Part shown: one piece after another, positions 3,232-47,697 of the stretch
Numbering within the stretch: the stretch's first letter is position 1
How the letters are laid out: each line of letters begins with the position of its first letter
Assembly (NCBI RefSeq): GCF_000374645.1
Contig: NZ_KB894800.1
Span: 292,589-356,588 of the forward strand
Direction: 5' to 3'
Length of the DNA: 64,000 nt
Source: Arhodomonas aquaeolei DSM 8974
GTDB lineage: Bacteria; Pseudomonadota; Gammaproteobacteria; Nitrococcales; Nitrococcaceae
Made by a program: the position numbers and the translations under genes
Notes under the pieces: generated by a model
Seen by the model: the letters and a program-made list of their open reading frames with translations, nothing else
The model's database searches: none
What the model was told of the DNA's origin: nothing

Positions 3232-4022
3232 AACAGTACCTCGATCTCATGCGCCACGTGCGCGACAACGGCGTGCGCAAGGCCGACCGCACCGGCACCG
3301 GCACCGTCTCGGTGTTCGGCCACCAGATGCGCTTCGATCTCGCCGAGGGCTTCCCGGTCGTGACCACCAAGCGGCTGCACCTGCGCTCGATCATCCACGA
3401 GCTGCTGTGGTTCCTCGCCGGTGACGCCAATATCGCCTACCTCAAGGACAACGGCGTCTCCATCTGGGACGAATGGGCCGACGCCAACGGCGACCTCGGC
3501 CCCATCTACGGGGTCCAGTGGCGCTCCTGGCCGACCCCGGACGGCGGCCACATCGACCAGCTCGCCGACGTGCTCGAACAGATCCGGCACAACCCCGACT
3601 CCCGGCGCCACATCGTCAGCGCCTGGAACGTCGCCGACCTCGACCGCATGGGCCTGCCGCCGTGCCACGCCCTGTTCCAGTTCTACGTGGCCGAGGGTCG
3701 GCTGTCCTGCCAGCTCTACCAGCGCAGCGCCGACATCTTCCTTGGGGTGCCGTTCAACATCGCCTCCTACGCGCTGCTCACGCACATGGTCGCGCAGGTC
3801 ACCGGCCTCGAGCCCGGCGAGTTCATCCACACCCTCGGTGATGCCCACCTCTACGTGAATCACCTGGAGCAGGCGGACCGGCAGCTCGCCCGCGACCCCC
3901 TGCCGCTGCCGAGGCTGGTGCTCAACCCGGCGGTCACCGACCTGTTCGCCTTCCGCTACGACGACATCCGCCTCGAAGGCTACCAGTCCCACCCCCACAT
4001 CAAGGCCCCCGTGGCCGTGTAG
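3228..4022 (+). CDS. thyA: Thymidylate synthase
   Basis: Converts dUMP to dTMP using 5,10-methylene-tetrahydrofolate, in the cytoplasm. It is 264 aa, the same length as E. coli ThyA. Visible signatures are the catalytic-cysteine motif [12 protein letters not shown], the dUMP-binding [18 protein letters not shown], and the C-terminal [12 protein letters not shown] overlaps the lgt stop (ATGA), implying translational coupling. The dihydrofolate it produces is recycled by folA, which here lies about 8.5 kb downstream rather than adjacent. Confidence 0.97.
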
Positions 4023-4050: not shown

Positions 4051-7014
4051 GTCGCCGAGCGCCTCCAGGGACACCCCGGCGCCGTTGCCGGCGAGGAATT
4101 CGCGGAACGCGGCCGCCTCCATGGGCCGGGCGAAGTAGAATCCCTGCACGGTCTGGCAGCCGCTCTCGCGCAGGAACGCCACCTGCTCGGCGGTCTCCGC
4201 GCCCTCGCCCACCACCTCGAGCTCGAAACGGTCACCGACGGCGATGATCGCCTCCACCAGGCTGGCGTCGGCGGGCTCGGACGGGGCCTTCTGGACGAAC
4301 TCGCGATCGACCTTGACCACGGTCACGGGCAGCCGCCGCAGGTAGCTGAGCGCGGAGAAGCCGGTACCGAAGTCGTCCAGGGCGAGGGCGACGCCGAGGT
4401 CCCGGAGCTCGCGCAGCGACGCACTGATGGCCTCGAAGTCGCTCATCAGCGAGGTCTCCACCACCTCGATCTCGAGGTCCGCGGGCACCAGGCCGGCCTC
4501 GGCGAGCTCGCGCCGGACCATCTCCACGAAACCGTCGGCCTCCAGCTGAACCGGCGCCACGTTGATGGCGATCCGGGGCAGATCGAACCCCTCGGCGCGC
4601 CAGTCCCGCAACGCGCGGCAGGCCATGCGTATCACCCATTCGCCGAGCTGGACGATCACACCGTTGGCCTCGAGCACCGGCATGAACCGCGCGGGGGAAA
4701 CCTCGCCGAGCGACGGCGAACGCCATCGCAGCAGCACCTCCGCACCGCGGATACGCCCGTCGACGAGCGAGACCTGGGGCTGGAAGGCGAGACGGAATTC
4801 GTGCTTGCTGACCGCCCGGCGGAGTTCGTTCTCCAGGGTGAACTGGCTGCTCACGGACTCGTTCATCTGCGGGGCGAAGAACTCCTGTCCGCCCCCGCGG
4901 CGCTTGGCGCGGTACATCGCCGTGTCCGCGTGCTTGAGCAACGAGGTTACGGTGGTGCCGTCCTGGGGATAGACCGCGATGCCGATGCTGCCCATGGGAT
5001 AGATCCCGCGGCCCTCCAGCAGGAACGGCTCGCTGATCACCCGCAGCAGCCGCTCGCCCAGGTGCGCCACCGCGTCACGGTTGGCCCCGGTGACGATCAC
5101 CGCGAACTCGTCGCCCCCCATGCGGGCCACGGTGTCCGCGCCGCGGGTCTCGCGGCGCAGCCGCCGGGCCACGTGCTTGAGCACGCGGTCGCCGGCGGCG
5201 TGGCCCATGGTGTCGTTGATGCCCTTGAACTGGTCGAGGTCGAGATAGAGCAGCGCCAGCGGTGTGCCGCGCTCGTTGGCGTCCGTGAGGGCCACCTCGA
5301 GACGTTCGAGCAGGCTCGTGCGATTGGGCAACCCGGTGAGGGCGTCCTGGTAGGCCAGGCGCTGGAGCCGGCGCTCCATCTCCATGCGCCTGGATATGTC
5401 CCGCCCGGTGGACACGAAATGGGTGATCCCGCCGTCGCCGTCCCTCAGGGGGGTTATGAGCTTGGCCTCGTGGTACAGCGAGCCGTCCTTTCGGCGGTTG
5501 ATGAACGACTCCCGGAATACCTCCCCGCGGCTCAGCGTATCCCAGAGCCGTTGGTAGAACTCCGGGTCATGGCGCCCGGACTTCAGCAGCCGCGGGGTGC
5601 GTCCGAGGACCTCGCGCTGGGTATAACCGGTCTCCCGCTCGAAGCTCGTGTTCACGAACTCGATCCGGCCCCTGCGGTCGGTGATCATCACGGCGTCGTG
5701 GGCCTGCTGCAGCGCCCGGCCGAGCTTGCGCAGCTCCGCCTCCGTGCGCGAGCGCTCCGAGAGATCGCGGTACACCGCAAGGACCAGGGACTCGTTCAGC
5801 CACTGGATACGGGTGAAGGAGACCTCCACCGGCACAGGCTCGTGGCCTGCGCACAGCAGGCTGCCGCTGACCAGGCGGCCGCGGGCCTGGCCCGCAGCGG
5901 CAAGAGCGGCCGCCACGCGCTGCCGCTCCGGTTCCGGATGAAACGAGGCCAGGTCGCGGTCCGTCAGCGGTGCCTCGTCACCGTACAGCTCGGCGAAGCG
6001 CTGGTTCCAGTCAATCACCCGGCCGTCCGCATCGGCGATCAGCATGCCGTCCGCGGCATTGTCCATGAGCGCCCGGAACTTGCCCTCCTGGGCGCGCAGC
6101 ATCGCCTCGCGCTCGCGCCGTTCGGAGATGTCCTGGATCACGCCCACGATCCGCCGCGCCCGGCCCGCGGCATCGCGCTCGACCCGCCCGGACGCGCTCA
6201 GCCAGGCGCCGGGCCGGGCGCTCACGCGGAACTCGACGTACAGCCCCTGGCCGTCGCTCAGTGCGCGCGCGAGTGCCGCCTCCGCATCCGCGGCATCGCG
6301 GGGGTCGAGCAGGGCGAGCAGCGACGTCCGGTCATCGGGCATGCCGGCGTCCCCGCGGGCGAACAGGCTCGCTGCCGTCTCCGACCAGCGCACGCGGCCA
6401 TCGTCCACGTCCCATTCCCATACCGCGAGCCGGGCCGCCTCCTGGGCCCGCTGAAGCCGCCGCCGGGCGGATTCGAGCGCGGCGCGATCCGACTCGAAAT
6501 AGGCCTCCAGCACGAGGGTAATGTCGAGGAAGACGATCTTGTGCAGCGCGTCCAGCGCCTGCATGAACCACGGGATGTCCCCCGCCGCGGCGCTCCAGAG
6601 GCTCGGCAGGTGGGCACGCAGGTACTTCGCGTAGCCACCCATATACCAGGCCGGCGCCAACCCGACCCGGTGATGCACGCGGCCGACGCGCAGCCGCCGC
6701 ATGACGAACGCGTCGTCGTGCGGCCCTGTGGCGAGCTCCCTGAAATGCTGGCGCTGGCGCTGCTTCAGCCCCTGGAGATGCTCGGGGTCGCGATCGAGGA
6801 TATCGCGCATCTCCGGGAAACGACCGAGGTGATCGTAGAATTCGTCCAGAGCGTCGTCGATCGAGCCGCCGAGCTGCACGGCCAGCTCGGCGAGCAGGGC
6901 CGCATCACGGCCGGTGAACTCGAGGAACGCCTTGCGGCGCTCGAGCTCACCGTGGTCGAGGCCGAGACTCTGCGCCATGCGCGTCGCCGGCGCATCCTTG
7001 TCGGTCGATTCCAT
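4039..7014 (-). CDS. Globin-coupled sensor with three PAS-like regions, GGDEF and EAL domains
   Basis: Predicted oxygen/haem-sensing c-di-GMP enzyme of 991 aa. Residues about 20-180 form a protoglobin sensor (proximal-His region [16 protein letters not shown]114/H115). PAS-like regions follow at about 190-300, 310-425 and 430-545. The GGDEF domain (about 550-715) has intact GGDEF at 633-637 and an RxxD product-inhibition site at 624-627. The EAL domain (about 730-975) has EVL in place of EAL at 759-761, plus [17 protein letters not shown] and EGAET. The frame extends upstream, but ATG 7014 is preceded by a GAGGGGGA Shine-Dalgarno and gives a normal globin N-terminus. Cyclase activity looks intact; phosphodiesterase activity is likely but uncertain. 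No transmembrane segment, so cytoplasmic. Confidence 0.9.
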
Positions 7015-7333
7015 TTCCCCCTCGCATCCGGCAATGGGCATTACCGGCCCGCGGCAGCTGCCTGCTGACCCAATCGACGGCTCCGCGGGTTCGGGGCGGA
7101 AGGCATCACGCTGACGATACCGCAGTGGCACCGGGCGCAAACTCGTTTTTCCGGATTAAGGACGCGGCCGGTGTTTCACGGTGAGGGGCGAGGGCTTGGC
7201 CCCACTGACACCGATACCCCGTCCCCGGTAACCCTAAACACCCATCCGGCGCTTCGCCACCCCCGAAGCCCCTGTGCAAAGCAAAAAAATTGCCGGAAAG
7301 CGGCACGCTGACGCCCTGGGCGCGCCGAAACGA
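7015..7333. other. 319-bp non-coding region between c-di-GMP gene and ANTAR regulator
   Basis: Holds the upstream region of the c-di-GMP gene (transcribed leftward) and the terminator of the ANTAR regulator (7283-7305). I see no convincing gene. No promoter with a good match at both -35 and -10 could be picked out. Confidence 0.5.
7283..7305 (-). terminator. Intrinsic terminator of the ANTAR regulator gene
   Basis: Read on the minus strand: stem TGCCG, loop CTTTC, stem CGGCA, then A and seven T. It starts about 28 bp after the ANTAR regulator stop codon. The short stem is compensated by a strong U-tract. Confidence 0.65.
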
Positions 7334-7927
7334 TCAATTCCTGCACACACCGAGAAACAATTCGCTGGCCTCGATGTACTCCTCCGCCACCTCCTCGAGG
7401 CGGCGCCGCTGGTCCCGTGCATGACCGCGCAGCCGGTTGAAGGCCTCGCTTCGGCCGATGCCGGCACGCTCCATGACCAGCCCCACCGCGACGCTGACGC
7501 TACGGCTGCCCTGCACCGCCCGTTCGAGCTGGTCACGGTGCTCTCGGAGCTGATGGAGCTCGCGGCCTCGTGCCATGGCGGCGTTGAGCACGGGCACGAG
7601 CTGGTTGCTCTGCAGGGGTTTCACGAGGTAGGTCAGGGCCCCGTAGCGGATGGCCTCGCTGACCGTCTCCGGATCCTCGTAGGCGGACAGGAATATGAAG
7701 GGCAGTGCGGTGTGCTCGGCCAGCCAGCCCGCGAGGCTGAGCCCGGACATGCCCGGCATCCGCACGTCAATGACGGCAAGGTCCACCTCGTTATCGCCGA
7801 GGCAGTCGATGGCCTGGTGGCCGCTGTCCGCTTCGAGGACCGTCATCCCCGCCCGCCGCAATCCGTCGCCCAGGGTGGCGAGCACCAGCCGGTCATCGTC
7901 CACAAGCAGTACCCGGCCCTCGGCCAT
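7334..7927 (-). CDS. Response regulator with ANTAR RNA-binding domain
   Basis: 197-aa regulator expected to prevent transcription termination by binding two-hairpin leader RNAs when phosphorylated. The receiver domain (about 4-120) has the acidic pair D10-D12, phospho-acceptor D54 (AVIDVRMPG), S81 and K103 (LVKP). A coiled-coil linker leads to a C-terminal ANTAR domain (about 128-188: VAVGLVMERAGIGRSEAF...LRGHARDQRRRLEEVA). ATG 7927 has a GGGGGAA Shine-Dalgarno. The histidine kinase at 8088 lies immediately upstream on the same strand and is the obvious partner. The RNA target is unknown; the rut-like operon at 10069 is one guess. Confidence 0.88.
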   Translation of the reverse strand: MAEGRVLLVDDDRLVLATLGDGLRRAGMTVLEADSGHQAIDCLGDNEVDLAVIDVRMPGMSGLSLAGWLAEHTALPFIFLSAYEDPETVSEAIRYGALTYLVKPLQSNQLVPVLNAAMARGRELHQLREHRDQLERAVQGSRSVSVAVGLVMERAGIGRSEAFNRLRGHARDQRRRLEEVAEEYIEASELFLGVCRN

Positions 7928-39269: not shown

Positions 39270-39399
39270 TGTGCAAACACCTTGGTCGTGGTCACGGTTT
39301 GATCGCCAGCGGTTCGCCCGCATACGGCATACTGGCGTTATGTGGCATCCGCCTCGGATCGATCATACTGCACGGCAACAACGCGACCAACCGCACCCC

Positions 39400-40143
39400 A
39401 TGACTGTCTCCGCCACGCCCCTCCAGGGCATCGTCACCACCGTCGACGCCGCGCCGGCACCGCCCGGCTGGCCCGTACTCGAGGCACCGCCGCAGAGCGG
39501 GCTGTACCTGCACTGGGACGGCTGGGCGCTCGCGCTCTGCCGCGCCACCCCCCCGCGAATGCGCCTCGTGCTCGATCCCGCCGCCACGAGTCTCGGCCGC
39601 CGAGGTCGCCAGGCGAGCGTCGGCAACGAGCACATCGCGCGTGCCTGCGGCCTGCGCGGGGGAGGAACACCGCGGATCGTCGACGCCACCGCCGGGGCCG
39701 GTCGCGACGCAGGCCTGCTCGCGGGACTGGGCGCGCAGGTGACCATGGTGGAACGCTCGCCGGTGGTGGCCGCGCTGCTCGCCGACGCACTGCGCCGTGC
39801 CGGGTCGGCCCCCGCCACCGCCCCGGTGGCCGCCCGGCTGGCGCTGGTGAGCGGCGAGGCGAGCGCGTACCTCGGCGACCACGTGGCGGACATCGTCTAT
39901 CTAGACCCGATGTACCACACCGGCCGGCGCAAGGCCCTCGCCGGCAAGGAAATGCAGCTGCTACAGGCCCTGCTCGGGCCGGACGCCGACGCGGACACCC
40001 TGCTCGACGCCGCCCGCGGCGCTGCCTCACAGCGGGTCGTGGTCAAGCGCCACCGTCACGCACCGCCGCTCGCCGGCCGCCGCCCGCACCACAGCCTCAC
40101 CGGCCGGAGCACGCGTTTCGACGTCTACCTGCCCGCGGGATAA
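39400..40143 (+). CDS. rsmJ: 16S rRNA (guanine-N2) methyltransferase RsmJ
   Basis: 247-aa SAM-dependent methyltransferase for G1516 of 16S rRNA in E. coli. Signatures are HWDGWALALC, VDATAGAGRDAGLLAGLGA (SAM loop, about 90-108), MVERSPVVAALLADAL and YLDPMYHTGRRKALAGKEMQ (catalytic DPMY; RsmJ has YLDPMFPH). ATG 39400 has no strong Shine-Dalgarno; the gene is divergent from phaC. It begins a run of RNA-related genes. Confidence 0.93.
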   Translation: MTVSATPLQGIVTTVDAAPAPPGWPVLEAPPQSGLYLHWDGWALALCRATPPRMRLVLDPAATSLGRRGRQASVGNEHIARACGLRGGGTPRIVDATAGAGRDAGLLAGLGAQVTMVERSPVVAALLADALRRAGSAPATAPVAARLALVSGEASAYLGDHVADIVYLDPMYHTGRRKALAGKEMQLLQALLGPDADADTLLDAARGAASQRVVVKRHRHAPPLAGRRPHHSLTGRSTRFDVYLPAG

Positions 40144-40247
40144 GGAACGTTGCGCCGCGGGAGCTGACACTCGTCTAACCCGGCGTGCGCGGCTACGCTA
40201 TCCGGACCGGCGGGACACGCCGGGTGAAGGCAATGCCGGAGGGGACG

Positions 40248-41384
40248 ATGAGCGCACGCAAACGCCATCCGCAGGCACCGGCGCCGGAGCGCTTCGATCA
40301 GGCCCTGGCCGCCGGGAGCGCGGAGCGCTTCGAGCATCTCGGCGTGGAGTGGATCCGGCTCACGGAAGACTGGCGGGGCATGCCACGGGGGCTGCTGCGT
40401 GTAGCCGGTCGCGTGGTCCCCGACTACCCCCACATCGCCCGGGTCTTCTCCCTCGCCGCCGGCATGCGCACCAACTTCGATGCCCCCTGCCATGTCGAGG
40501 AGAAGATCGACGGCTACAACGCGCGTATCTTCCGTGCCGGCGACGGCATCGCCGCCGTCACCCGTAGTGGCCGCCCCTGCCCCTTCACGATGGACCGTCT
40601 CCCGGAGCTCATCGAACCGGCCGCACTGGGGCGCTTCTTCGACGCCTGCCCGGACGGCGTGCTCTGCACGGAGATAGCGGGCCCGGGCAATCCCTACATG
40701 GACGTCGCCTCCCCGAGGGGCGGCGACGACGTCCGCGCCTTCGTCTTCGATGTGCTGCGCCTCGACAGCGCCGGATTCGAACCGCTGGCCGAGCGCGACC
40801 GCCTGCTCGCGGCCGCCGGTGCCCCCCAGGCCCCGCGACTCGGGCTGTTCGGCCCCGGTGAGATCGATACGCTCAAGGCGGAGGTCCGCCGGCTCGACGA
40901 CGAGGGAGCGGAGGGTATCGTGCTCAAACCCGCCGGCCCCGGCCTGCGCGCCAAATACGTCTGCCCCGGCATTAATGTGATGGATGCGGCCAGCGAGGCC
41001 GCGCTGGAGCTGGAGCTCCCGGGCGCGTTCTACACCCAGCGCCTGGTGCGTATGGTCATGGCCGCCCGCGAGCTGGGCCAGGCGGAACGGATAACGGCGC
41101 TGGGCGAGCGTTTCGGCCGCGAGCTCGCCGAGGGCTTCAGCCGGGCGCTGGACGAAGTCGAGGCCTCCGGCGAGCTGGTTCAGCGGCACACGGTACGGCT
41201 GCGTGAGGCCGCGAGCGCCGACGCCCTGCTCGCCCACCTCAACCGCGGCTCGCGCACCATCCACGCCGTGGAGGAATCCCGGGAGCACGACGGCCGGCAC
41301 TGGGTGGTCACCTTCCGGAAGGTATTCCGCCGTTCCACCTCGCGCCTTGCCAGCCTGCGCCGGGGCGTGCCGGTGTTCGACTGA
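40248..41384 (+). CDS. Archaeal-type RNA ligase (Rnl3 / Pab1020 family)
   Basis: 378-aa ATP-dependent RNA ligase of the nucleotidyltransferase superfamily. Motif I EKIDGYN (85-91) gives adenylated K86. TEIAGPGNPYMD and RAFVFDVL correspond to motifs III/IIIa, EGIVLK (222-227) to motif IV, and RAKY (234-237) to motif V. The C-terminal helical part (about 260-370) is the Rnl3 dimerisation-type extension. ATG 40248 sits 6 bp after a GGAGGGG Shine-Dalgarno; an upstream ATG at 40233 is less likely. Members occur mainly in archaea and some extremophilic bacteria. The convergent gene at 41400 encodes the protein that accompanies this ligase. The RNA substrate in bacteria is unknown. Confidence 0.92.
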   Translation: MSARKRHPQAPAPERFDQALAAGSAERFEHLGVEWIRLTEDWRGMPRGLLRVAGRVVPDYPHIARVFSLAAGMRTNFDAPCHVEEKIDGYNARIFRAGDGIAAVTRSGRPCPFTMDRLPELIEPAALGRFFDACPDGVLCTEIAGPGNPYMDVASPRGGDDVRAFVFDVLRLDSAGFEPLAERDRLLAAAGAPQAPRLGLFGPGEIDTLKAEVRRLDDEGAEGIVLKPAGPGLRAKYVCPGINVMDAASEAALELELPGAFYTQRLVRMVMAARELGQAERITALGERFGRELAEGFSRALDEVEASGELVQRHTVRLREAASADALLAHLNRGSRTIHAVEESREHDGRHWVVTFRKVFRRSTSRLASLRRGVPVFD

Positions 41385-41399
41385 GCGGCTCCCACGGTT

Positions 41400-41987
41400 T
41401 CAGTCCTGGCCCGCGAGATGGCATAGCAACCCATGCAGACGTTTGGCGGGCATCAGGCGAAGCCCGCCCTTCTCGGCCCACTGCATCAGGCCGTGGTCCG
41501 CCGAGGAAACGGCAGCGTCGAGCTCCACGGCGAGCAGGATGACGTCCAGGTCCTCGGTGGAATCGAGCAGCCCGGTGCGCAGCGCCTCCCGGTAGTGGCC
41601 GCGCAGCCAGCGCACCGTGCGCTCCACGCTGCCGGACTCGACCTCGCGCACCGCCTTCTCCGCCACCCGCAGGCCACGGTCGATGCGCGTTCGGATGTCC
41701 TCGATGAGCTCGTAGAGGAACAGCCCGGGCACACGCAGGTCGTGCCGGCGCGGGGCCTGCAGGTGAACCACCAGCTCCAGATCCGGTGGCAGCCGCTCCG
41801 GGTCGGCGAAGTGACTGAGCTCGTCCATCACCGAGGGCGGCATGTAGCAGGTCAGGCGCGGGGCGGCCTCGCGGGCGAGCTCGACGAATCGGTTGACCGC
41901 CGCCGTGGCGTCATCACCGAACACGCCGGCGACGTCCGGATTGGTAAAGATACTGGTATCCAGCACGATCGCGTCGGTGTGGCTCAT
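41400..41987 (-). CDS. RNA ligase partner protein (PIN-like nuclease fold)
   Basis: 195-aa PIN-domain-like protein matching the 'RNA ligase partner' family found beside Pab1020-type RNA ligases. Acidic positions expected for a PIN metal site are D10 (IVLDTSIFTNPDV), E56 (MDELSHF), D146/D148 (TEDLDVILLAVELDA) and D164 (VSSADHGLMQWAEKGG). ATG 41987 has an AGGAGG Shine-Dalgarno. It converges on the ligase gene with a 15-bp gap instead of being in operon with it. Inference: it may cut or trim RNA whose ends the ligase then joins. No enzymatic role is known to me. Confidence 0.9.
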   Translation of the reverse strand: MSHTDAIVLDTSIFTNPDVAGVFGDDATAAVNRFVELAREAAPRLTCYMPPSVMDELSHFADPERLPPDLELVVHLQAPRRHDLRVPGLFLYELIEDIRTRIDRGLRVAEKAVREVESGSVERTVRWLRGHYREALRTGLLDSTEDLDVILLAVELDAAVSSADHGLMQWAEKGGLRLMPAKRLHGLLCHLAGQD

Positions 41988-42119: not shown

Positions 42120-42398
42120 TTAGAAGCGGCGCGGGCCGCGACCGCCGCCGGCCGGCTTGCGGTCCTGCGCCTCGTTGATGCGCAGGGTGCGGCCGCCGAG
42201 CTCGGTGCCGTTCAGCGCCTCGATGGCGGTATCCGCCTCGGAGGGGGCCATGCGCACAAAGCCGAAGCCGCGCGGACGACCGGTCTCGCGATCCGTGATG
42301 AGGCGGACCTCGTTGACGTCGCCGTAGGCGGCGAACAGATCACGGACCTCGTCCTCGGAGGCACTGAAGGGCAGGTTGCCCACGTAAATCGATTTCAT
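42120..42398 (-). CDS. RRM-domain RNA-binding protein
   Basis: 92-aa single RRM protein. RNP2 is SIYVGNLPF and RNP1 RPRGFGFVRM, with a Gly/Arg-rich tail (GGGRGPRRF), like bacterial cold-inducible glycine-rich RNA-binding proteins. ATG 42398 gives the family start MKSIYVGNLPF; an in-frame ATG at 42413 (MSVVTMKS) follows AGGGA but with too short a spacing. A candidate promoter at 42527-42555 would leave a leader of about 120 nt, as in cold-regulated genes. Likely an RNA chaperone. Confidence 0.92.
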   Translation of the reverse strand: MKSIYVGNLPFSASEDEVRDLFAAYGDVNEVRLITDRETGRPRGFGFVRMAPSEADTAIEALNGTELGGRTLRINEAQDRKPAGGGRGPRRF

Positions 42399-42607: not shown

Positions 42608-45017
<2,410 letters not shown>

Positions 45018-45021
<4 letters not shown>

Positions 45022-46385
45022 TCGGCCTCCTCATCCGTGTCGCCATTGCCGCCACCCGGGCGCAGCACGCCCACGGCGAGACGGTCATCGGTCAGGTATG
45101 TACGGGCCACGCGCTGCACGTCCGCCGCGGTGACGCCTCGGATCCCTGCCTCGAAGCCCTTGAGCCACTCCCAGCCGATCCCGGTCGCCTCCAGCCGGCC
45201 GATGCGCATGGCCTGGTAGAACATGGAGTCGAGCCCATAGAGGTGGTCGGCGAGGATCTGGTTCTGGGCGCGCTCGAGGGTCTCGCCGTCCACCGGCTCG
45301 CGCCGCAGCGCCGCGATCTGCTCGCGCACCGCCGCCTCCAGGGCCTCGGGCGAGGTACCGGACGTCGGGGTCGCCTCGATGCTGAAGCGGGTGTCGAGCC
45401 GGGCCGCCGGCGAGTAGCCCGCCCCCACCCCCGCGGCGACGGACTGGTCACGCACGAGACGCTGGGCCAGCCGGGCACCGTCGCCACCGTCGAGAACACC
45501 GGCGAGGACCTCTAGGGCGTAGACGTCGGCCATGTCGTCGGCGGTGGCCGCCGACGGGACCTCGTAGGCCATGGACAGGTGCGGTACCCGCACGCGGTCG
45601 TCGCTGGCGGACAGCCGGCGCTCGCCCGGGGCACTCATGTGCCGGTCCACCGGCGGCTGAGGGTCCTCGCCGCCGGGAACGGGCCCGAAGTACTTGCGAG
45701 CGAGTTCGAAGACCACCTTCGGCTCGACGTCACCGACGACCACCAGCGTCGCGTTCGCCGGCGAGTACCAGCGCCGGTACCAGTCCCGGAGGTCGCCGAT
45801 TTCCAGGCCGTGCAGGTCCTCGGACCAGCCGATCACCGGCTGGCGGTACGCGCTCACCGGGTAGGACACCGCGTTGAACCGCTCGCCGAAGGCGGCGACG
45901 GGCTGGTCGACGATACGCAGCCGCCGCTCCTCGAGCACCACGTCGCGCTCCTTGCGGAAGGCGTCGGGGTCGAGGCGGAGCTGGTGCATGCGGTCGGCCT
46001 CGAGCCGGAACGCCGTCTCCAGCCGGTCGGCGGCGAGCTGCTCGTAATAGGCGGTGTAGTCGCGGCTGGTGAAGGCATTTTCCTCGCCGCCGTTGCGCGC
46101 GACGATCTCCGAGAACTCGCCGGGTTTCAGGTTCTTGGTGCCCTTGAACATCATGTGCTCGAGCACGTGGGAGATCCCGGTGTGCGGCCGGGACTCGTAG
46201 CTCGAGCCCACCGCGTACCAGACCTGGGAGACCACCACCGGGGCACGGTGGTCCTCACGGACGATGACATGCAGCCCGTTGTCCAGACGCGTCTCCGATA
46301 CCGGCCAGTCCCGCGCGGAGGCCGGCACCGCCAGCATCAGCAGCCCGGCGACCACGCCGGCGAGAATCCATGCTCTTGCGATCAT
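45018..46385 (-). CDS. M16-family zinc metallopeptidase, active subunit
   Basis: 455-aa exported zinc peptidase. Signal peptide about 1-24 (MIARAWILAGVVAGLLMLAV), inverted zinc motif HVLEHMMFKGT with the downstream Glu in GGEENAFTSRDYTAYYEQL. C-terminal half is the second lobe. The open frame runs on upstream, but ATG 46385 gives a proper signal peptide. First of the M16-M16-rsmD-coaD run, divergent from ftsY with a 76-bp shared upstream region. Confidence 0.92.
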
Positions 46386-46461
46386 TGGCTCGCTGCCCAG
46401 CGTTGATGAATGGGTGATAGGATAACAACCTCTTTGTGCCTCAAACCCGCCGAGAGGTTCC

Positions 46462-47697
46462 ATGTTCGGATTCGGTCGCCGCCGGAAAGGCAAGCAGCCG
46501 CCCCGCGAGGAGGCCCCGCGCCCCGAAGACCGGGGAACCGCCGGGGACGAAGCGCCGGAACGGGCCGCTGACGAGACACCCGCCACCGAGGCCGACGCGC
46601 CGGAAGCGGAACACCCTGCCCCCCGGGAGACACCGCCACCCGCGACCGGCGACACCCCGGAGGCGATGCCGTCAGGCGACGCCCCCGCCGATGACGGCCC
46701 CGGACGGACGGTGGCGGACACGGACACGCGCACCGACGCGGAGACGGGCCGCGACAGCAACGGCCGCCGCGGCTGGCTGCAGCGCCTGCGCGCCGGGCTG
46801 CGCAAGACCGGCGAGGGGCTCTCCGGGCTCTTTCTCGGCCGCAAGACCATCGACGACGACCTCCTCGAGGACCTGGAGACCCGGTTGCTGATGGCGGACG
46901 TCGGCGTCGAGGCCACCCAACGCATCATCGACGACCTCACCGCGCGGCTTCGCCGCCGTGAGCTCGGTGACGCGAACGCCCTCTACCACGCCCTGCGCGA
47001 AGACATGCTCGCGATCCTCGAGCCAGTGAGCGCGCCGCTCGCCATCGACCCAGCCCACCGGCCGTTCGTGATCCTCACCGTCGGGGTCAACGGCGTGGGC
47101 AAGACCACGACCATCGGCAAGCTCGCCAGTCACTACCGCGGCGCGGGCCACGGCGTGTTGCTCGCCGCCGGCGACACCTTCCGCGCCGCCGCGGTGGAGC
47201 AGCTCCGCGTATGGGGCGAACGCACAGGCATCCCGGTGATCAGCCAGCCCACCGGTTCCGACGCCGCCTCGGTGGTCTACGACGCGCATCAGGCGGCCAT
47301 CGCCCGGGGCAACGACATCCTTATCGCCGATACCGCCGGACGGCTGCACACCCAGAGCAACCTCATGGAGGAGCTCAAGAAGATCCGCCGGGTACTGGGC
47401 AAGCAGGACGACACCGCGCCCCACGAGGTGCTGCTGGTGGTGGACGCGGGCACCGGCCAGAACGCCCTCGCCCAGGCCCGCCAGTTCCACGAGGCAGTGG
47501 GCGTGAGCGGCGTGGTGATCACCAAGCTCGACGGCACCGCCAAGGGCGGCGTCGTCCTGGCCATGGCCCAGCAGCTCGGCGTTCCGATCCGCTACATCGG
47601 GGTGGGCGAGCGCGCCGAGGACCTGCGGCCCTTCAACGCCGGCGACTTTGTCGACGCCCTGCTCGCGGACACGGTGGAGGACGGCGACGCCGCATGA
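46462..47697 (+). CDS. ftsY: Signal recognition particle receptor FtsY
   Basis: 411-aa SRP-receptor GTPase delivering ribosome-nascent chains to the Sec/YidC machinery. The N-terminal A domain (about 1-100) is very acidic and Ala/Pro/Glu-rich, followed by an amphipathic segment ([18 protein letters not shown]), N domain, and G domain with [42 protein letters not shown] and [13 protein letters not shown] 46462 has a GAGAGG Shine-Dalgarno. The stop overlaps ftsE (ATGA). Confidence 0.97.

Follow-up and report, generated by a model that had tools for sequence, protein, structure and literature searches.

A protein-only RNase P and its companion Rnl3-type RNA ligase, a probable accessory RNA-processing module in Arhodomonas aquaeolei

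It is still debated why some prokaryotes keep a protein-only ribonuclease P (RNase P) in addition to the RNA-based enzyme, and a link to an RNA ligase is the main published clue that we found. The same question is raised by two neighbouring genes of Arhodomonas aquaeolei DSM 8974, located in the stretch of contig NZ_KB894800.1 analyzed here (positions 292,589 to 356,588; 64,000 nucleotides, hereafter the window). In a first-pass annotation they were described as an archaeal-type RNA ligase and a PIN-like partner protein known mainly by its co-occurrence with the ligase. In this work, profile and structure searches were combined with genome surveys and gene trees to establish what the two proteins are, whether they belong together and what they may do in their host. 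We consider it probable that the genes of the protein-only RNase P HARP and of the companion ligase Rnl3 were transferred jointly, and that they serve as an accessory module for RNA processing in a host that retains the RNA-based RNase P.

Judged from its sequence and predicted fold, the partner protein is HARP, an enzyme with solved structures; the first-pass annotation had the family right, and the protein is better known than was supposed. It scores 188.2 bits with TIGR03875 (cut-off 95.3) and 185.7 with PF08745 (cut-off 27), while the top-scoring NCBIfam subgroup, NF003344 (PRK04358.1-5), gives 212.1 bits, yet below its threshold of 241. The sequence search against PDB returned eight distinct sequences at E<=1, seven of them RNA-free ribonuclease P (best E 3.2e-51). 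The model of the partner, built from a 20-row alignment with a mean predicted local distance difference test score (pLDDT) of 86.3, has a PIN fold with an inserted two-helix domain (helices 88-116 and 121-138; residues 138-141 poorly modelled). In the fold search every match at E<=0.001, that is ranks 1-34, is a HARP chain, from Planctomycetes, Thermococcus celer, Hydrogenobacter, Aquifex or Halorhodospira, all ahead of other PIN proteins. The catalytic residues are kept as well. According to the parts of PMC8266387 concerned with mutants of Aquifex Aq880, residues D7, D138, D142, D161 and R129 are indispensable or important, and a change of R125 leaves residual activity. In the alignment, D7, D138, D142 and the fourth aspartate correspond to D10, D142, D146 and D164 of the window protein, and the pre-tRNA-cleavage arginines R125 and R129 to R129 and R133, both kept. 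The fourth aspartate is D160 in the aligned sequence from an Aquifex metagenome-assembled genome (MAG), where residue 161 is a glutamate; its spacing matches that between D155 and D173 in the enzyme from Planctomycetes, as given in passages of PMC9051087. Among 20 aligned HARPs, D142, D146 and D164 are invariant and D10 is present in at least 90%; the wider basic patch is partly kept, with R, W and H at window positions 119, 123 and 127. The acidic positions noted earlier (D10, E56, D146, D148, D164) are located as stated, and D142 has to be added to them. Thus the acidic pocket is supported at the level of conserved aspartates and matched fold rather than of pocket geometry.

The ligase scores 212.9 bits with TIGR01209 (cut-off 136.9), 52.6 with PF09414 (27) and 50.1 with PF18330 (25), so that the profile searches suggested as a check place both proteins far above the curated cut-offs. 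All nucleotidyltransferase motifs reported at first are present, namely K86 in EKIDGYN, EGIVLK at 222-227 and RAKY at 234-237, and none of K86, E222, K227 and K236 varies among 15 aligned ligases. We take K86 to be motif I, E222-K227 motif IV and K236-x-V238 motif V. As in PAB1020, judging from passages of PMC3514331 alongside which these names were assigned, the second lysine of motif V is missing (K236-Y-V). Sequence matches in PDB comprise the Aquifex entry 3qwu (E 1.9e-69), a Palaeococcus RNA ligase, PAB1020 and 5d1o. The ligase model (pLDDT 92.1) matches the folds of Pab1020, 5d1o, the Palaeococcus enzyme and 3qwu over nearly the full length, with template modelling (TM) scores of 0.85-0.89 by query length at 24-36% identity; the next fold matches listed (rows 13-50, comprising T4-type RNA ligases, DNA ligases and others) reach a TM of at most 0.45. 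We regard the identity of the two proteins as HARP and Rnl3 as practically certain.

The pair is already known as such. The link between HARP and Rnl3 was published in April 2025 by Seshadri and Gopalan in mBio (PMC12153264), who surveyed more than 1 million genomes and found HARP in 751, of which 665 also carry Rnl3. The two genes lie within 5 kb of each other in 163/501 archaea and 127/164 bacteria and are "typically bidirectional"; Nitrococcales (Halorhodospira, Aquisalimonas) and Thioalkalivibrio are among the bacteria named. As hypotheses, the authors discussed that the pair matures C/D box RNAs, takes off 5'-adenylated leaders or repairs RNA, and they also weighed a toxin-antitoxin relationship, which was thought unlikely, at least in Thermococcus. 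This paper alone was returned on the subject by literature searches that combined HARP and Rnl3 (from 2024) or RNA ligase, Aquifex and protein-only RNase P (from 2025). Among the matches listed, the named relatives nearest to the window HARP come from a Nitrococcus mobilis MAG and from further records of Ectothiorhodospiraceae or gammaproteobacteria (69-73% identity), so the window pair belongs to the neighbourhood of the bacteria named in the published survey.

The association was examined in a class sample of 369 genomes, an order sample of 54 genomes, 14 named control genomes, and 80 HARP loci taken from at least 115 confirmed relatives. The samples overlap (loci L071, L072 and L073 lie on the same contigs as L183, L182 and L185), so their counts are not independent. 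HARP was found in 16 genomes of the class sample; the ligase scored above cut-off in 14, all within those 16, and in 0/353 genomes lacking HARP (Fisher p 1.5e-23, relatedness ignored), two of which gave sub-cut-off ligase scores of 20-21 bits. The order sample is concordant in 52/54 genomes, with 25 carrying both genes, 27 neither, 2 the ligase only and 0 HARP only; counted by genus (n=17), 11 have both, 5 neither and 1 the ligase only (p 0.001, relatedness again ignored). Genome G369 was counted as HARP-positive although its HARP is read in two frames. Neither gene occurs in any of the 14 genomes (1.2-2.2 Mb) of genus g2, from the window's own family. Both genes are present in the genomes of 75 of the 80 HARP loci: where the surveyed stretch held no ligase (26 loci), 21 genomes carry an above-cut-off ligase elsewhere, e.g. 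Halorhodospira abdelmalekii (L135). Four controls (Thermus composti, Methanocaldococcus jannaschii, Haloferax volcanii and Methanosarcina acetivorans) match HARP, three of them over cut-off, and the Methanocaldococcus and Methanosarcina genomes match both families. The co-occurrence anticipated at the outset was thus borne out, whereas a pair of this kind in a proteobacterium is no oddity, with both genes in nearly half of the order sample and related bacteria named in the published survey. As for a third partner, when open frames of at least 100 codons around the 80 HARP loci were clustered, no other cluster of at least six loci reached four phyla: HARP formed a cluster of 80 loci from 9 phyla and the ligase one of 52 loci from 8 phyla, and the next two (52 and 41 loci, 6 phyla each) are, judged by eye, apparently antisense frames of the two genes. 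The split HARP of G369 (locus L190, G369:C16:50000-56500) lies in pieces 3393-3839 and 3806-3949, a frameshift or an assembly error; this locus holds a window-type pair in a related family, with an intact-looking ligase.

Linkage is tight and its geometry characteristic. In the order sample, 19/25 pairs lie within about 1.5 kb, all 19 convergent, and the other six belong to genus g285, where a distance of at least about 0.4 Mb separates the genes in two single-contig genomes and the remaining genomes have them on different contigs; three further g285 genomes (77-94% complete) show neither gene. The class sample has 11/14 pairs adjacent, all convergent, and three on different contigs. Among the 80 HARP loci, the ligase is found in the surveyed stretch at 54 (including L081, L082, L095, L097 and L121, whose ligases are cut by contig ends and were counted as linked), and 53 of these pairs, an archaeal one among them, are tail-to-tail. 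The sole tandem pair is that of a Deltaproteobacteria MAG (L150; HARP 5998-6552, ligase 6580-7647). Convergence in place of an operon, taken at first as exceptional, is therefore the usual arrangement in our sample. The 3' ends overlap by 4-54 bp in 31/53 convergent pairs (16 from Aquificota, 6 Pseudomonadota, 3 Verrucomicrobiota, 2 Myxococcota, and one each from Nitrospirota, Planctomycetota, Acidobacteriota and an archaeal MAG), a count that is descriptive and stands without a chance expectation for ordinary convergent genes. HARP was also seen on five haloarchaeal megaplasmids; on two the adjacent ligase is divergent, head-to-head, 98 and 121 bp away, and on the other three no ligase is annotated within 3 kb in an incomplete gene table covering plasmids only. 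With tail-to-tail pairs in bacteria and head-to-head pairs on haloarchaeal plasmids, linkage has been kept, or re-made, in opposite geometries, and an operon is not the rule. The two head-to-head pairs (L236, CP031304.1, and L240, NZ_CP096020.1), about 100 bp apart, could share a promoter region.

The two genes also appear to share a history. Quick LG+G4 trees, some long branches of which were flagged, were built for 79 pairs with near-full-length proteins (58 linked, 21 unlinked; truncated-ligase loci and L190 left out). Path distances in the HARP and ligase trees correlate with r 0.90, a value reached by 0/2000 permutations. In both trees the window falls into the same five-member clade (window, L071, L072, L073, L181), apart from the Thioalkalivibrio/Halorhodospira type, to which the pair of genome G405 belongs, although G405 is from the window's own family. 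In both trees this clade adjoins L076, a MAG of Nitrospirota, the ligase tree placing it in a seven-member group that includes L074 too. A single clade with the Thioalkalivibrio/Halorhodospira type was rejected by the approximately unbiased (AU) test (p-AU 0.0011 for HARP, 0.0033 for the ligase), the grouping having been set after inspection of the trees, from NCBI family and order codes. The position of the window pair outside that type, in the HARP tree as well as in the ligase tree, suggests that the pair was acquired jointly by horizontal transfer. At the locus itself, the pair lies between rsmJ and an RRM gene in the window and in three g274 genomes (L181-L183, with about 3.6 kb of extra sequence between ligase and rsmJ), and three g2 genomes have the order phaC, rsmJ, RRM without it, which fits joint gain or joint loss. 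In the two of these small g2 genomes whose frames were read, the space between rsmJ and the RRM gene is taken by a frame of roughly 300 codons that matches neither gene of the pair (L203:2169-3077, L200:549-1499). Outside the order, the trees put bacteria closest to the window pair, namely MAGs of Nitrospirota and Myxococcota; an archaeal donor found no support in trees that hold a single archaeon (L122), the scan patterns and the limit of 80 loci having yielded few archaea. Of the earlier suggestion of transfer from archaea or another extremophile, the transfer is thus supported and the archaeal source is not shown. Codon use and guanine-cytosine content of both genes are inside the range of ten neighbouring genes, as the first reading of the codons had indicated, so the arrival of the pair need not be recent. 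No phage-borne HARP was matched at E 1e-5 in 50,697 phage records.

What would HARP do in a genome that already has an RNase P? The window genome carries both rnpB (RF00010, 327.5 bits) and rnpA (PF00825, 98.5 bits), and in the class sample rnpB was found in 14/16 HARP-positive genomes, in one of them truncated at a contig end; the two without a match are assemblies that comprise 410 and 440 contigs. The 3'-CCA is encoded by each of the 43 tRNA genes detected in the window genome, and a Hydrogenobacter HARP cuts CCA-bearing precursors about 10 times slower (PMC12153264). Because rnpB and rnpA are present and all these tRNA genes encode CCA, it is unlikely that HARP acts as the housekeeping RNase P of this genome, the CCA argument being drawn by analogy with Hydrogenobacter.

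The pair is best read as an accessory cut-and-seal module for RNA maturation or repair. RNase P cleavage yields a product with a 5'-phosphate and a leader that ends in a 3'-OH, and ATP-dependent ligases of the Rnl3 kind join a 5'-phosphate to a 3'-OH; HARP and Rnl3 are therefore compatible in end chemistry, whereas RtcB, which differs in this respect from the ATP-dependent ligases, is not compatible with RNase P ends. For the cutting and sealing steps we infer the following route: HARP would cut a structured tRNA-like precursor or a damaged tRNA, leaving a 5'-phosphate; Rnl3 would adenylate this end, by steps such as those described in passages of PMC3514331, and join it to a nearby 3'-OH; the product would be a circular or repaired RNA. 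That the two proteins are functionally linked seems to us likely; that they act on one RNA as cut-then-seal is quite possible and is put forward tentatively. A cut-and-seal, circularisation or repair system had been proposed from the sequence before; the idea is chemically sensible and near to published ones, the partner, however, being already known as an RNase P.

One substrate has been proposed for archaea, where HARP would mature and Rnl3 circularise C/D box small RNAs (sRNAs). For the window genome this is extremely improbable: C/D box sRNAs are not known from bacteria, and the scan of the 64-kb window returned no Rfam family at gathering scores. Bacterial members therefore need another substrate than the one invoked for archaea, which is what makes the bacterial pairs important, and in the window genome it is probably something else, the first candidates being tRNA-like precursors as well as tRNA and ribosomal RNA (rRNA) that is damaged or in fragments. 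The archaeal proposal (PMC12153264) has behind it the Thermococcus kodakarensis ligase, which, according to PMC9014305, is required for circular C/D box sRNAs and whose loss leads to accumulation of rRNA fragments. A toxin-antitoxin-like arrangement, with the PIN nuclease as a toxin whose damage the ligase mends, or which the ligase holds in check, is also discussed in PMC12153264, and it could draw on the membership of PIN_5 in a VapC-like group and on the abutting genes. We consider it very unlikely, since HARP persists without the ligase in several genomes and unlinked to it in others, so that dependence on the partner is not seen; the HARP model matches RNase P enzymes first and VapC weakly; and Thermococcus loses the ligase without a growth defect, the idea being called unlikely there (PMC12153264).

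A more substantial alternative, also raised in PMC12153264, is that the two are independent stress tools that share no RNA, HARP serving as a sturdy back-up RNase P and Rnl3 as a ligase for RNA repair in general, both favoured by salty, alkaline or hot habitats. The presence of rnpA and rnpB beside HARP agrees with a back-up role. No RtcB was found by search of the window genome, so that, of the two kinds of RNA-sealing enzyme looked for, it would have Rnl3 alone, and RtcB occurs in 14/25 HARP-positive against 4/29 HARP-negative genomes of the order, as if RNA repair in general tracked such habitats. The near-complete concordance in the order, the congruent trees, the shared second origin and the tight linkage in opposite geometries nevertheless exceed what a shared habitat predicts, and we hold this alternative to be rather unlikely. 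RtcB as a mutually exclusive partner was considered and rejected, since it is commoner in the HARP-positive genomes of the order.

Several observations weigh against an accessory cut-and-seal module. HARP occurs without a full ligase in two class-sample genomes, G299, where none was found, and G355, which has a C-terminal fragment scoring 27 bits, in 5/26 genomes whose HARP loci have no ligase nearby and where none was found elsewhere, and among the controls in Haloferax volcanii and Thermus composti, which match HARP and not the ligase; conversely, G397 and G398 (81% complete) have the ligase without HARP. Convergent genes form no operon, and co-expression is thus not implied. According to PMC9014305, the T. 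kodakarensis ligase knockout leaves circularisation of tRNA and rRNA intermediates unaffected, and certain HARPs from bacteria did not work when assayed on pre-tRNA (PMC12153264 and PMC10941002; misfolding may explain this, as the latter adds). The HARP genomes without ligase and the Thermococcus tRNA result are the strongest evidence against a strict two-enzyme pathway. Halorhodospira halophila HARP is listed among the failures in PMC12153264, which cites another paper for it, and pre-tRNA cleavage by it is reported in a passage of PMC8266387. A far more specific form of the cut-and-seal module, which we offer as speculation and believe improbable, is that the bacterial genes are a transferable module making or repairing circular or re-joined tRNA- or rRNA-derived RNAs under osmotic stress, independently of C/D box RNAs, in which the overlapping tail-to-tail 3' ends would give antisense ends that stop cutting and sealing from peaking together. 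Halophilic gammaproteobacteria are suited to a direct test, as they offer a genus with an unlinked pair, a related genus without both genes, and the RNA-based RNase P in most HARP-positive genomes.

Features of the pair and its immediate neighbours in the window (positions are those of the window)
Feature	Position	Strand	Basis or remark
Rnl3/Pab1020-family ATP-dependent RNA ligase, 378 amino acids	40248..41384	+	open reading frame, profiles, PDB matches, model
HARP (protein-only RNase P), 195 amino acids, a PIN_5 metallonuclease that carries an inserted helical domain	41400..41987	-	open reading frame, profiles, PDB matches, model
15-bp gap between stop codons of the convergent ligase and HARP genes	41385..41399	.	
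rsmJ-like 16S rRNA methyltransferase, left neighbour, background	39361..40143	+	start chosen; longer frame possible
RRM RNA-binding protein, right neighbour, background	42120..42398	-	start chosen; longer frame possible

Both frames are intact and converge stop to stop across the gap first noted, with one copy of each gene found in the genome. The ligase start is taken as the ATG at 40248, the same frame being open also from an earlier GTG at 40185. The flanking genes agree with the first-pass annotation, the names rsmJ, rsmD and RRM coming from profile matches of the window proteins; its view that the pair sits among RNA genes holds for these neighbours, but the context looks like background, the same gene order existing without the pair in three g2 genomes. 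Further to the right, 42608-47697 holds ordinary housekeeping genes (coaD-like, rsmD, two M16-like peptidase genes and ftsY); phaC, coaD, M16 and ftsY are names that we assume for the genes around the pair. Between 40100 and 42200, neither terminator-like sites (0.5 expected from shuffled sequences) nor sigma-70-like sites (0.0 expected) were detected, which with such expectations is little informative.

Compared with known systems, the published HARP-Rnl3 pair consists of the same two families, closely linked on opposite strands as in the window. The main text of PMC12153264 does not separate tail-to-tail from head-to-head pairs and reports no overlapping 3' ends, tree congruence, unlinked retention in one genus or site comparison, though its supplements may hold some of these points and also the present genome; orientation, overlapping 3' ends, congruent trees, unlinked retention and the residue comparison are what the present analysis adds to that text. 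The nearest solved structures by sequence and fold are the HARPs of a Planctomycetes bacterium (7e8k/7e8o) and of Thermococcus celer (7e8j), both reported active on pre-tRNA and 43-48% identical to the window HARP in structural alignments. With Aquifex aeolicus Aq_880 and the Hydrogenobacter enzyme, the window HARP shares sequence, fold, the catalytic aspartates and the two helix arginines; unlike the Aquifex-type HARP, which acts as sole RNase P, it is found in a genome that carries rnpA and rnpB.
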